Assembly: GCA_027019265.1 (NCBI GenBank)
Contig: JALUWX010000020.1
Span: forward strand, 1 to 64,000
Length of the DNA stretch: 64,000 bases
Direction of reading: 5' to 3'
Source: Phycisphaerales bacterium
GTDB lineage: Bacteria; Planctomycetota; Phycisphaerae; Phycisphaerales; UBA1924
The notes below the pieces were generated by a model. That model was not told the origin of the DNA and made no database searches. It saw only the letters and a program-made list of their open reading frames with translations. Of this stretch, positions 23,175 through 27,481 are shown in pieces. The first letter of the stretch is position 1; each line of letters opens with the position of its first letter. The translations under genes and the position numbers were made by a program.

Positions 23175-24119
23175 TCAGTCGCGCACAACCCAGATCAACC
23201 GCCGACCCTCGTAGTCGAGCGTGATCCGATCCCCATCGAACAACCCGGAACCGACGGCCCCCCTCAGATCCTCGATCGGAGGCCCACCCCCCGGGCTCGT
23301 CGAAAACACAATCTCCGCCTCGTCCAGGTCCAAGCCACCCATCGACGATGCGCTGATCGGCGCGCTCCGGATCTCGAACGGCACCCCGTCGATCCCCTGC
23401 GCCATCCCCACCATGCGCTGCGCGGGATCATCGAGCCCCACAAGCCCGATCTCCTGCGCGGCCTCGAACTCCAGCTGAAGCGCCGGGGTCGCGCCAAGGT
23501 CGAGCAGGTAGTTCCCTTCGACCGGGTCGAGGTCCTCCCCCATCCCCATCGCGGTAATCGAGCCCGAGAAGTACGGGAACCCGGACTCCATCTCCATCTC
23601 AAGCACCCGCGCCCCCTCGGGGATCTCGTACCCCTCGCGCTCCTCAAGAACCAGCTCCGATTCGCCGTAGTCGATCGTCGTCATGAAACGCTGAATCAAC
23701 GAAGCCCCGAGGAACCCCGCGATCTCCTTCCCGTTGAAATCGGGGAGCTGCGCTTCGTCCGGGAGCACCGTGACCATCGGATCGACGAACTCCAGCTCCT
23801 CCCCATCCACCCCGATCCCGACGCGCACATCCGACGCGCTGTGGACCTGGAGCGTCCCCGACCCCGCGCCCCCCATCTCCCCCATGGGTTCCGTCTCGAG
23901 CGAACAGGTCCGCGCGACATGCGCGAACACCGTCGTCTGCTGATTCCCCGTATCGAGCACAAACCAGTACGGCCCCTCCCCCTCGATCCACGCTTCCATC
24001 AGCAGATGCCCCGTGCTCGTATCGAGCCCGATCACCACCGGCGAAGCCCCCCCGACCCGCGCCAGCACCCCCACCACCACGAACGCGCACACCAACCACA
24101 TGGACCGAATCCGAGTCAT
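23175..24119 (-). CDS. Secreted retropepsin-like aspartyl protease domain protein
   Basis: The 314-residue protein has a signal peptide (MWLVCAFVVVGVLARVGGASP) and two aspartyl-protease-like halves. The first has FVLDTGNQQTTV with an Asp in the DTG motif near residue 57; the second has LLDLGATPALQL, where DLG replaces DTG. This matches bacterial pepsin/retropepsin-like proteins in which one half is altered, so activity is uncertain. AAGGAGG lies a few bases before the ATG at 24119. It meets the metallophosphoesterase gene tail to tail. Confidence 0.72.
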   Translation of the reverse strand: MTRIRSMWLVCAFVVVGVLARVGGASPVVIGLDTSTGHLLMEAWIEGEGPYWFVLDTGNQQTTVFAHVARTCSLETEPMGEMGGAGSGTLQVHSASDVRVGIGVDGEELEFVDPMVTVLPDEAQLPDFNGKEIAGFLGASLIQRFMTTIDYGESELVLEEREGYEIPEGARVLEMEMESGFPYFSGSITAMGMGEDLDPVEGNYLLDLGATPALQLEFEAAQEIGLVGLDDPAQRMVGMAQGIDGVPFEIRSAPISASSMGGLDLDEAEIVFSTSPGGGPPIEDLRGAVGSGLFDGDRITLDYEGRRLIWVVRD

Positions 24120-24223
24120 CGAGACCTCCTTCGAGCGACGATGATGCGCCGGAAGGGGTGCCCAGTCACCCATTGCGTGAGAAATCGATCATCCGCCCAG
24201 AAACGAGTGCCCTGCCGGGTGCT

Positions 24224-24296
24224 GGGTGCCCTGCTTCATCCCGAAGGGTAAAGCAGGCCTCCCCTCTCTCCCCCTACCACACTCTCCTCAACCGAT
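24224..24296. repeat. REP copy A with a vestige of a second RAYT 3' end
   Basis: Bases 24224-24257 match REP copy B at 33 of 34 positions and form the same hairpin (CCTGCTTTACCC and GGGATGAAGCAGG). Similarity continues for some 35 bases into a minus-strand segment encoding RLRRVW and a stop, against RLRRGW at the end of the RAYT gene. This suggests the decayed end of another transposase copy. A partial head of the repeat (GTGCCCTGC) is also seen at 24208. Confidence 0.75.
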
Positions 24297-24460
24297 CGAC
24301 CAACTGAATTTCGGAGACCATCAGAAATCTGAATCCCCCGGAGACCAGCGTCATCGGCCTTGGCAGATCCAACGGTTCTTGAAAATATCTTGAAAACGAA
24401 CGCGAAAGCATGAGAGAATCGAGCATCCGTTGCCGTGCACAATCAGAGGAGTCCGGATCT

Positions 24461-24679
24461 TTGAGCATCGTAGTTGGAACAATCTGCTCGCTACTCGTGC
24501 TCACCCTCCTCTGGCACCCAGACTTTGCGAGAGATACCTAGAAGATCAACAAAGACCAAAGCAGACTGATTCGAACGAAGACCTGGTTCCAACAAATCAA
24601 ACATGAACCTGATCGCCTCTCGATCATCGTACTGGCAGCCACAACTTTCCTCGGCGGAATCGCAGTCACAATCTTGTAG
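24461..24679 (+). pseudogene. Small two-helix membrane ORF interrupted by an in-frame TAG
   Basis: From the TTG at 24461, with GAGGAG eight bases upstream, 26 codons encode a first membrane helix (IVVGTICSLLVLTLLW) and end in TAG at 24539. The same frame continues for 45 codons, giving a charged loop and a second helix (LSIIVLAATTFLGGIAVTIL), and stops at 24677. Two helices in one frame on either side of a single stop suggest a small membrane protein broken by a nonsense mutation. An ATG at 24410 is another possible start. The region is less G+C-rich than its neighbours and lies between REP copies A and B. Confidence 0.4.
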
Positions 24680-24681
24680 AC

Positions 24682-24715
24682 GGGTGCCCTGCTTTATCCC
24701 GAAGGGTAAAGCAGG
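24682..24715 (+). repeat. REP copy B (3' side of the RAYT gene)
   Basis: The 34-base element starts GGGTGCCCTGCTTTATCC and folds into a stem with CCTGCTTTA and TAAAGCAGG arms around CCCGAAGGG. It lies 15 bases after the stop of the RAYT gene and is inverted relative to copy C. GTAG, the tetranucleotide typical of RAYT-linked REPs, is just upstream at 24676-24679. Confidence 0.85.
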
Positions 24716-24730
24716 TCTCCCCGCCTTCCT

Positions 24731-25240
24731 CTACCACCCCCTCCTCAACCGAACAACCCCTCGTCCACCCGAGTAATCCCGAGCCGACGACCACTCCCAA
24801 TCCTCGGGCCTCCCCACCAACCCCCGCTTCACCGGGTTGGCATGGATGTACCCGATCTTCTCGCGCAGATCATCCTCGCTCCGGATCGTCCGTTCATACC
24901 CACCCCCGCGCTGCCAGAACACCGCTTTCCCCGTCGTCCCGATCAGTTCATAGAGCATCGGATCATCCCGCTCCGTCATCCGCGCGAGCATCCGCCGAGC
25001 GAATCCCTGCTTGAGCCCGCGCATCACACGATTGATTCTGCCGTCGTCTGGGACGACGACAAGGTGCACATGCTCGGGCATCACGACATACGCGATCACA
25101 TCGAACCCAAGCCGCTCGGACTGTGCCGCGATTTCGGAGACGTAGAGATCACGCACCAAGGGATCCGCGAAGAGCGGGAGCCGATTGAAACACGAGTAGG
25201 TCAGAAAGCGGGCGTGGTTCGGTCCTTCAAAGCGTGCCAT
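24731..25240 (-). CDS. REP-associated tyrosine transposase (RAYT)
   Basis: The 169-residue protein is a Y1/HUH-type transposase. The metal-binding pair is His57 and His59 in MPEHVHLVV, and the nucleophile is probably Tyr131 in GYIHANPVKRGLV, all in the standard order. The C-terminus is basic and ends RLRRGW, as in REP-linked transposases. These enzymes nick and rejoin single-stranded REP hairpins and are thought to have spread REPs in genomes. The ORF is intact, so it may be active. The ATG at 25240 fits the family N-terminus. Confidence 0.9.
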   Translation of the reverse strand: MARFEGPNHARFLTYSCFNRLPLFADPLVRDLYVSEIAAQSERLGFDVIAYVVMPEHVHLVVVPDDGRINRVMRGLKQGFARRMLARMTERDDPMLYELIGTTGKAVFWQRGGGYERTIRSEDDLREKIGYIHANPVKRGLVGRPEDWEWSSARDYSGGRGVVRLRRGW

Positions 25241-25261
25241 CCCATCGCCCCCAACCGTCTA

Positions 25262-25295
25262 CCTGCTTTGCCCTTCGGGTCAAAGCAGGGCACCC
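25262..25295 (-). repeat. REP copy C (5' side of the RAYT gene)
   Basis: This 34-base copy is inverted relative to copies A and B and differs from B at two or three paired positions (GACC and GGGC in place of ATCC and GGGT), which keeps the stem intact. Compensating changes in the stem imply selection or enzyme recognition of the structure. It overlaps the TAG stop codon of the adjacent membrane-protein gene. Confidence 0.85.
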
Positions 25296-25666
25296 TAGAC
25301 AAATCGAATCCCCACCAACGACAACAGCCAAACGAGCACGTACGAAGAGATCACCAACAAAATCGAGATCTTGATGCTCCGCACAAAGTCATGCTTGAGC
25401 AGGCCACGGATCAGCCCAACCCAGATCGCAGTCGTGCATAGACCAAACACAATGTCGTAGACAACCCACGGCGTTCCCGCGAGCAGGAACAAAAGCAGTT
25501 TCCCGATCGCTGTCGTTCCTATCAGCGAGAGAAAGCTGACGAGAAACGCATCCCAAAAGTCCGACTTGATCTTGATGATCCATTTTTCGTAGAGGCGCAG
25601 CAACCAGCAGAACGGGAACGCGAAGAGCGTCACCTGCGCGATGAATCCGAAAAGCGGAAAGCTCAT
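25295..25666 (-). CDS. Small integral membrane protein downstream of lepA
   Basis: The 123-residue protein has three to four predicted membrane helices (PLFGFIAQVTLFAFPFCWLL, FLVSFLSLIGTTAIGKLLLFLL, IVFGLCTTAIWVGLI, ISILLVISSYVLVWLL). I do not recognise a family. The ATG at 25666 starts three bases after the lepA stop, with GGGAG upstream inside the lepA end, so the pair is translationally coupled. Base composition is clearly more A+T-rich than in lepA. The stop codon touches REP copy C. Confidence 0.6.
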   Translation of the reverse strand: MSFPLFGFIAQVTLFAFPFCWLLRLYEKWIIKIKSDFWDAFLVSFLSLIGTTAIGKLLLFLLAGTPWVVYDIVFGLCTTAIWVGLIRGLLKHDFVRSIKISILLVISSYVLVWLLSLVGIRFV

Positions 25667-25669
25667 CAC

Positions 25670-27481
25670 TCACTCCCCCGTATCAAGCACCGCCATAAAC
25701 GCCTTCTGCGGGATGTTCACCGATCCGATCGACTTCATCTTCTGCTTGCCCTTCTTCTGGGCTTCGAGCAGCTTCCGCTTTCGGGACACGTCGCCGCCGT
25801 AGCACTTGGCCGTCACGTCCTTGCGGAAGCCCTTGATCGTCTCGCGCGCGATGATCTTCCCCCCGATCGCCGCTTGGAGCGGGATCTCGAACTGGTGACG
25901 ATCGATCTGCTTCTTGAGCTTGAGCAGGAGCGTTTTCCCGCGCGCGATCGCGCGGTCCCTATGACAGATCAGCGACAGCGCCTCGACGGGGTCGCCGTTG
26001 ATGAGGATCGCGACCTTGACGAGATCGTCCTGCTCGAAGCGCGTCACCTCGTAGTCCATCGTCGCATAGCCCTGGGAGATCCCCTTGAGCTTGTCGTAGA
26101 AGTCGAAGATGATCTCCGCGAGGGGGACCTCGAACGTCAGCATGTCGCGCCCGTGGGACACGAACGTCTGGTTCTTGAAGATCCCGCGACGTTCCAGACA
26201 CAGCTTCATGATCTCCCCGATGTACTTCTCGGGGGTCATGATCTCGACCTTGCAGATCGGTTCGGAGAACTCGGTGATGAGCCCCGCATCGGGGAGGTCG
26301 GCCGGGTTGTGGATCTCCTTGTCGAAGATCTCGCCGCCCTTCCCGCGCATCTTGATCTTGTACGACACCGTCGGCGCGGTCTGCACCACCTCGACCCCGC
26401 CCTCGCGCTCCAAGCGCTCCTGGATGATGTCCATGTGGAGGAGCCCGAGGAACCCGCAGCGGAACCCGAACCCGAGCGCCTCGGAGTGCACGGGCTGGAA
26501 CGTGAACGACGAGTCGTTGAGCTGGAGCTTCTCCATCGCTTCGCGGAGCTCTTCGAAGTCGTTGCCCTTCGCGTCGGTGGTGGCCGGGTAGAAGTCGCAG
26601 AACACCATCTGGATCGGGGGCGCGTACCCCTCCAGCGCTTCCTCCGCCGGGTCGTGGTCGATCGTGATGGTATCGCCGACGCGCACATCCCCGAGGGTCT
26701 TGATCGCGGCGACCAGATAGCACGTCTCGCCGGGACCCACCTCTTTCACCTTCGTCGCTTTGGGTGTGTACTTCCCCAGTTCCGTGACGGCGTACGTCCG
26801 ACCCAGACCCATCATCCGGATCTTGTCCCCGACCTTGAGCTTCCCGTCGAACACACGCGCGTACACGATGACCCCCCGGTAATCGTCGTACACCGCATCG
26901 AAGATCAGCGCCCTCGTCTTCGTCGTCAAAGGCTCCCGAGGCCCGGGGAACCGATCGCAGATCGCGTCGAGCAGCTCCGGGATCCCCTGACCCGTCTTCG
27001 CGCTCACGGGGATGCAGTCCATCGCATCGAGCCCGAGCACCTGCTCCACTTCCTCAGCGATCTCGTCCGGGCGCGCGCCCGGGAGGTCGATCTTGTTGAG
27101 GACCGGGACGATCTCAAGGTCCTGTTCGACGGCTAGATAGGTGTTCACCACCGTCTGCGCCTCCACCCCCTGGGAAGCATCGACGATCAGCAGCGCCCCC
27201 TCACACGCTTTGAGCGCGCGGGAGACCTCGTACCCGAAATCCACGTGACCCGGGGTATCGATGAAGTTGAGCATGTAGTCTTCGCCGTTGTGATGATGCA
27301 TGACCGTCACGGCCGAAGCCTTGATCGTGATCCCGCGCTCGCGCTCCAGGTCCATGGAATCGAGGAGCTGTTCCTTCGCTTCCCGGTCCGTGACGGCGTG
27401 TGTTGCTTGGAGGAGCCGATCCGCGAGCGTGGACTTGCCGTGGTCGATGTGCGCGATGATGGAGAAGTTGCGGATATGCAC
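25670..27481 (-). CDS. lepA: Elongation factor 4 (LepA)
   Basis: LepA is a ribosome-associated GTPase that can back-translocate or rescue stalled ribosomes. The 603-residue protein has standard length. It carries G1 (AHIDHGKST near residue 10), the RGITI switch near residue 49, G3 (DTPGHVDF), G4 (NKID), and the LepA-specific C-terminal domain with GGDVSRKRKLLEAQKKGKQKMK. The start is a GTG at 27481. A terminator separates it from the lipoprotein gene upstream, so it should have its own promoter, which I cannot place confidently. Confidence 0.97.
   Translation of the reverse strand: MHIRNFSIIAHIDHGKSTLADRLLQATHAVTDREAKEQLLDSMDLERERGITIKASAVTVMHHHNGEDYMLNFIDTPGHVDFGYEVSRALKACEGALLIVDASQGVEAQTVVNTYLAVEQDLEIVPVLNKIDLPGARPDEIAEEVEQVLGLDAMDCIPVSAKTGQGIPELLDAICDRFPGPREPLTTKTRALIFDAVYDDYRGVIVYARVFDGKLKVGDKIRMMGLGRTYAVTELGKYTPKATKVKEVGPGETCYLVAAIKTLGDVRVGDTITIDHDPAEEALEGYAPPIQMVFCDFYPATTDAKGNDFEELREAMEKLQLNDSSFTFQPVHSEALGFGFRCGFLGLLHMDIIQERLEREGGVEVVQTAPTVSYKIKMRGKGGEIFDKEIHNPADLPDAGLITEFSEPICKVEIMTPEKYIGEIMKLCLERRGIFKNQTFVSHGRDMLTFEVPLAEIIFDFYDKLKGISQGYATMDYEVTRFEQDDLVKVAILINGDPVEALSLICHRDRAIARGKTLLLKLKKQIDRHQFEIPLQAAIGGKIIARETIKGFRKDVTAKCYGGDVSRKRKLLEAQKKGKQKMKSIGSVNIPQKAFMAVLDTGE

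Follow-up and report, generated by a model that had tools for sequence, protein, structure and literature searches.

The locus described here raises two questions: whether a small transposase gene in a planctomycete genome and the tagged hairpins around it form a genuine REP/RAYT system (RAYT, REP-associated tyrosine transposase), and whether the foot of those hairpins, GTGC, is a tag that the enzyme reads. Within the window (the whole stretch of DNA that was analysed, 64,000 nt), the island comprises the following features:

24224-24257, + strand: REP copy A, with the tag GTGC at 24226-24229 and a hairpin at 24230-24257 that has one C/A mismatch
24274-24301, - strand: RAYT 3'-end remnant adjoining copy A, about nine last codons and the stop
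24682-24715, + strand: REP copy B, inverted, on the downstream side of the RAYT gene, with the tag GTGC at 24684-24687 and a hairpin at 24688-24715
24731-25240, - strand: RAYT gene, an open and complete reading frame of 169 aa
25262-25295, - strand: REP copy C, ahead of the RAYT start and in the gene's orientation, with the tag GTGC at 25290-25293
25262-25289: hairpin of REP copy C (9 bp, 1-nt bulge, 3 bp, GAA loop)
25295-25669, - strand: 124-aa ORF on the strand of the RAYT gene and upstream of it

All three copies share one form (GGGTGC, a 9-bp stem, one bulged base, a 3-bp stem and a GAA loop), a pattern that matched three times in the window vs none in 100 shuffles. A preliminary description of this DNA had proposed an intact RAYT gene bracketed by the inverted REPs B and C, an arrangement confirmed by the complete reading frame and by both copies being found in place. 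Also recovered were its third copy about 460 bases away (A lies 458 nt from B) and a compensatory difference between B and C, in which the pair beside the bulge is A-T in B and G-C in C. Folded as single-stranded DNA, B reached -10.2 kcal/mol (z -4.2) and C -12.1 kcal/mol (z -4.0), and copy A, which carries the C/A mismatch in its stem, was weaker at -7.3 kcal/mol (z -2.4). The fossil RAYT 3' end that had been described beside A held up in part: positions 24268-24301 form a direct repeat of 24725-24758 (82% over 34 nt), and the remnant reads ...RLRRVW-stop where the intact RAYT ends in RLRRGW-stop, but it is short, and no convincing RAYT similarity beyond it was seen in the 424 nt separating A from B. 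At the far side of the island, the 124-aa ORF and REP C overlap by one base, at once the last of the ORF's stop codon and the repeat's first G; this ORF found no match in Pfam, NCBIfam or PHROGs at the thresholds applied, and nothing in Rfam matched within 23900-25700.

The protein is a RAYT, a Y1 HUH enzyme, as judged by family model and nearest structure, in agreement with its original designation. It passed the NCBIfam model for REP-associated tyrosine transposases (NF047646; 103.2 bits, cutoff 80) and failed that for IS200/IS605 (NF033573; 23.4 bits, cutoff 55), and the nearest solved structure both by sequence (E 2.9e-8) and to the modelled fold (Foldseek E 3.7e-10; 24% identity in the fold alignment) was 4er8 (the RAYT of E. 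coli together with a REP hairpin). The structure model had a pLDDT of 76 and a pTM of 0.75, from an input alignment of four sequences only. Conserved residues in the alignment comprise H57-V-H59, W109-Q...E116-R117 and Y131-I-H-A-N-P, the last of which gives a tyrosine motif, YIHANP, of the Y...NP rather than the Y...Q type. In the parts of PMC6006769 consulted, Y...NP is the signature of RAYT class 2 and Y...Q that of class 1, and the motifs fit exactly none of the rows of Table 1 there. An ordinary IS200/IS605-type insertion sequence, with the repeats as its terminal hairpins, would share the fold superfamily; indeed the ISDra2 and IS608 transposases rank behind 4er8 among the fold matches, and the protein also matched PF01797 (28.5 bits, cutoff 23). 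Given the failed IS200 model beside the passed RAYT model, the class 2 rather than class 1 tyrosine motif (so far as the consulted sections of PMC6006769 define it), and a single copy of the protein in the draft genome (91.5% complete) against at least 23 strong copies of the hairpin, we regard such an insertion sequence as extremely improbable.

REP copies across the genome and genus

Extending the search from the window to the draft genome (122 contigs totalling 3.04 Mb, 91.5% complete), we identified 19 REP copies by pattern (up to three mismatches) vs none in a reversed control, and at least 23 strong copies (E no worse than 1e-9), followed by weaker ones, by a covariance model built from 20 of the strong copies and one other hairpin. 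Because 150 of 1137 candidates were scored by this model, the figure of 23 is a floor. The further copies anticipated by the preliminary description therefore exist, in numbers that do not sustain its picture of few copies and early spread; REP-like copies also occur in 16 of the 21 genomes of the genus, and RAYTs are common in this planctomycete family, with matches, some partial, in 89 of 150 genomes.

The REP stems carry compensatory changes. Among the 23 copies, which reduce to 11 distinct rows, standard pairs make up 93.9% of paired cells, and both-side changes number seven cells vs a shuffled mean of 1.4, with none of 500 shuffles as high. Coarser measures were weaker than this cell count: three pairs changed on both sides (shuffled 1.2; 22 of 500 as high) and five further pair types were present (shuffled 3.6; 78 of 500 as high). 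Among sister genomes, stems likewise change on both sides after GGTGCC, e.g. from CCTGC/GCAGG to CCTCC/GGAGG. The 73 genus copies include 11 close pairs, every one of them inverted, with tags facing outward and members 52-70 nt apart, as in the REPIN layout, and the genome under study holds a strong copy on contig C10 with a degenerate inverted partner. We also compared RAYT presence with copy number in eight genus genomes. Those with a strong RAYT match hold 19 (the genome under study), 7 (G059), 7 (G119) and 5 (G148) copies, one with a weak match (G132) holds 2, and those with no match hold 3 (G097), 1 (G144) and 0 (G140); small as these numbers are, they fit a dependence of REPs on a RAYT. 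A stem found beside the RAYTs L094, L096, L099 and L129 occurs in 6, 15, 11 and 8 copies, respectively, in their genomes and in none in the window's genome.

All 23 strong copies lie outside ORFs (gene calls by codon scoring), and 18 of them lie no more than 149 nt past the stop of an own-strand gene, tag first (simple gene calls, by eye; two-sided binomial 0.011, or 0.003 for 17 of 20 when A, B and C are excluded). This bias would be expected if the hairpins were 3' UTR elements, forming RNA ends or stabilising mRNAs, with the adjacent RAYT incidental or a thing of the past. A 3' UTR role is, however, compatible with mobilisation, so that only the incidental RAYT is a true rival, and the bias itself may follow replication direction. 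Moreover, no terminator-like call was made at A, B or C in the stretch scanned, REPs form inverted pairs, and tagged hairpins of differing stem bracket RAYTs in many genera. We therefore consider an incidental RAYT very unlikely.

Many copies extend beyond the common form. By eye, 18 of the 23 have an extra 3' tail around CGCCCAATGTCTTC, in some cases degenerate, which is absent from A, B, C and the copies on contigs C10 and C119; after dispersed REPs (e.g. L009, L015) this tail reads near AACnnnTTGCGCCCAATGTCTTC, and it is absent at the RAYT. One idea is that GCGCCC of the tail could pair with GGGTGC as a "double foot", which is possible in many tailed copies. Since GGGTGC is invariant in 23 of 23, covariation is silent on this outer pairing.

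Other repeats accompany the main REP. A second GTGC-tagged hairpin family, GTGC-CACTGACC...GGTCAGTG, was found on contigs C42, C84, C91 (two copies) and C111, with five exact-pattern copies here vs none in 20 other genus genomes. Similar stems flank the RAYTs of another genus (L119, L159), and the family is possibly the remnant of a lost RAYT. A third, GGTGCCATGGTCCTGCGCAGCAGGGCCATG, has six copies in the genome with up to three mismatches (C37:11346, C48:8077, C64:4553, C80:8772, C103:1769 and C4:1558), of which the copy on C37 has the 3' tail of the main REP and a different stem. A GTGC hairpin at C103:1823 with the stem CCTCCTTCG/CGAAGGAGG resembles REPs beside the sister RAYTs of G148 and G059 (L071, L072). 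Also identified were a composite repeat, CTCCTCCCCCGGG...GGGGGAGGTGTCACGCGCAGCGTGACGGAGGGGG, and variants of it directly downstream of REPs (L022, L029, L031, L032), as well as a palindrome core, TTCCACGTGGAA, seen seven times on small contigs (14 over both strands), which we take to resemble a ParB site. Contamination was rejected as the origin of the REP-rich contig C80, where the one full-length leucyl-tRNA synthetase identified in the genome lies; it is 71-80% identical to the synthetases of 19 of 20 other genus genomes (the remaining one gave a weak fragment). RNase Y, YchF and PPDK genes are aboard other REP contigs.

The GTGC foot among planctomycete RAYTs

GGGTGC precedes the stem, and hence GTGC forms the foot, in 23 of 23 aligned copies of the genome, and GTGC also led in 330 kb of it, chosen largely for its REPs, where it formed 26 of the 456 feet counted on 228 hairpins (next 13). 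This foot, the island's most unusual feature, goes unremarked in the preliminary description. We then surveyed 90 family RAYT loci, comprising the window, 29 loci from a search and 60 further matches (E to about 4.5e-32), with two dropped (one fragment and one with an internal stop). In an untagged census of perfect stems of at least eight pairs, no more than 400 bp from these RAYTs, counting foot 4-mers toward the gene, GTGC accounted for 56 of 135 inward feet upstream (next GAGG, 7) and 56 of 141 downstream (next 4); it was also first among outward feet (24 and 29). A tolerant search placed a GTGC hairpin within about 400 bp at 82 of the 90 loci, with inward GTGC hairpins on both sides of the RAYT at 57. 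Among the eight loci where this search found no GTGC hairpin, three have GTGG on both sides and one has it on one side. C opens the stem in 250 of 262 GTGC hairpins.

GTGC is thus conserved as the foot tag of REPs in this planctomycete family while stems diverge, and the island belongs to a genuine REP/RAYT system of a kind common in the family. The tag might nevertheless be inherited rather than read, related RAYTs simply keeping their ancestral flanks. The RAYTs are homologous and the tag is clustered on their tree (below), and common descent could account for part of the excess of hairpins near them. If flanks mutate freely, though, descent alone sits poorly with the retention of four bases while stems and loops diverge strongly between genera, and with the much weaker signal further out: in the 70 of 90 loci with full flanks, we counted 194 GTGC hairpins within 400 bp vs 21 at 700-1100 bp, in 61 vs 11 loci, and two in one letter shuffle of the near flanks. 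Inheritance without reading is accordingly an unlikely account of the tag.

Across the phylum, a RAYT match was found in 159 of 294 sampled genomes, and 68 loci were added to the family's 90. These comprise 28 new loci and 40 stretches picked non-exhaustively, leaving out fragments and many paralogues of one genome; where a stretch contained two matches, as two did, the best one was taken. Among the resulting 158 loci, GTGC hairpins occur at 106, GTGG at 35 and GTAG at 12, with no tag assigned at 24, and GTGC and GTGG are found together at 10, so that a strict reading of the fourth base may be doubtful. Requiring the tag on both sides gave confident calls for GTGC at 82 loci, GTGG at 13 and GTAG at 4, and none at 59 of 158.

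All 158 rows were kept in a protein tree, a quick reconstruction with many poorly supported branches. One clade of 134 rows (SH-aLRT 80) holds 81 of the 82 GTGC and 10 of the 13 GTGG rows. The remaining three GTGG rows and L227, the sole confident GTGC call outside the main clade, whose tag varies with the chosen stem start, fall in two further clades. The four GTAG rows, with one unlabelled row among them, are separate and carry an E. coli-like WQ..R[FY]xEHT motif. The GTGC rows share the consensus RFWQxGGG[YF]DRN, where the window protein reads FWQRGGGYERT. The GTGC label changes 10 times on the tree vs a shuffled mean of 15.9 (0 of 500 as low), and the starred branches require at least five such changes. 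L135, with GTGG on both sides, lies very close to L119, with both tags; together with the label changes, this closeness suggests that the fourth base shifts readily between C and G and that the first three are more fixed. A further GTGG example is L101, a Phycisphaerales MAG. The window's own phylum is taken from the preliminary description and from named relatives. No column was seen that cleanly separates GTGC from GTGG enzymes (kinship uncorrected). Whether the planctomycete RAYTs of the FWQxGGG[YF]DRN clade constitute a separate, undescribed REP superfamily, with GTGC as the guide foot and repeated C/G switches at the fourth base, is in our judgement an evenly balanced proposition.

Proposed mechanism and comparison with known systems

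We consider it highly probable that this is a REPtron, in which a domesticated, single-copy Y1 HUH RAYT spreads GTGC-footed REPs as non-autonomous elements. By analogy with other RAYTs (PMC8266576), the enzyme would bind single-stranded REP DNA through the hairpin and its four-base 5' foot, Tyr131 would nick beside the hairpin, and REPs would spread through intergenic DNA, alone or as inverted pairs, without autonomy. In this lineage the foot would be GTGC, and the stem behind it nearly always opens with a C-G pair. Conservation alone makes it likely that the enzyme reads this tag, or GTG with either C or G as the fourth base.

The cleavage site offers a further view of this reading. In the portion of PMC8266576 consulted, other RAYTs bind single-stranded REPs and nick at CT near the hairpin, and the Marinomonas RAYT nicks at CT or CA, an altered foot giving an altered site. 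Applied to a GTGC foot, the guide-base rule in that portion predicts GC or GA as the cleavage dinucleotide. Both proved to be depleted over the 14 nt beyond the 3' side of the hairpins (GC at 0.72 and GA at 0.69 of background), where TT (1.8x) and CT (1.63x) exceed background; on the 5' side, GC, GA and CT stand at 0.71, 0.99 and 1.27 of background. Either the guide rule is not transferable here or cleavage occurs elsewhere, and since GC and GA are not enriched whereas TT and CT are, our claim is that the tag is conserved and that the enzyme likely reads it. Directly behind the stem, a G that could pair with the C of the tag is uncommon (14 of 190), and a matching depletion of C after GTGG stems was not seen (17 of 51).

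The foot tetranucleotide helps to recruit RAYTs and to choose the cleavage site. The planctomycete enzymes provide a large natural set with GTGC or GTGG feet, suited to studying how the guide of such an enzyme shifts and whether the site of cleavage shifts with it. Should the guide rule hold, the enzyme and its choice of cleavage site would have evolved together with the foot, and the set would form a natural series of guide change in a single-strand transposase.

Relative to published systems, the REP/RAYT kind is known and the GTGC foot is new, "not in print" holding for the texts searched. The main texts of PMC3733652 and PMC6006769 do not contain the string GTGC, no word starts with GTGC in the part of PMC8266576 consulted, and full-text literature searches for GTGC with RAYT and for "repetitive extragenic palindrom" with Planctomycetota found nothing. 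In the sections consulted of PMC2817692 and PMC3686654, GTGC occurs inside GTAG- or GTGG-headed REPs, as in GGTGGGTGCC. REPs are defined by GT[A/G]G in the consulted part of PMC3686654, so that the present hairpins, footed with GTGC, are REPs by architecture and stand outside the class as defined there. In the consulted part of PMC6006769, the 66 families behind the REP search are all described as GTAG or GTGG (four of the 66 break its rule set), and subclasses 2.1 and 2.3 are without REPs. Published searches built on GTAG/GTGG would thus miss GTGC systems.

Individual groups resemble the present system to differing degrees. The GTAG and CGTC superfamilies (PMC3733652) also consist of tagged short palindromes with Planctomycetes among their hosts, and the tag GTGC is in neither. 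As described in the consulted sections of PMC6006769, class 3 TnpA_Y1 shares a non-canonical foot and Planctomycetes among its main hosts but has Y....Q and the foot CnGA, compared with Y...NP and GTGC here; subclass 2.6, with atypical structures, is alike in its non-canonical foot or structure; and the GTGG-enriched margin of subclass 2.2 (arcs a, b and c) has the foot GTG in common and a different fourth base. GTGG REPs also flank relatives within the window RAYT's own protein clade. TnpA_REP/REP of E. coli (group 2, subclass 2.2, 4er8) similarly combines a Y1 HUH RAYT and inverted flanking REPs with a 5' foot tetranucleotide, a long bulged hairpin, intergenic copies and REP pairs. It differs in its foot, GTAG rather than GTGC, and in having WQPRFWEHAIR where GTGC-labelled proteins have FWQxGGG[YF]DRN and the window protein FWQRGGGYERT.
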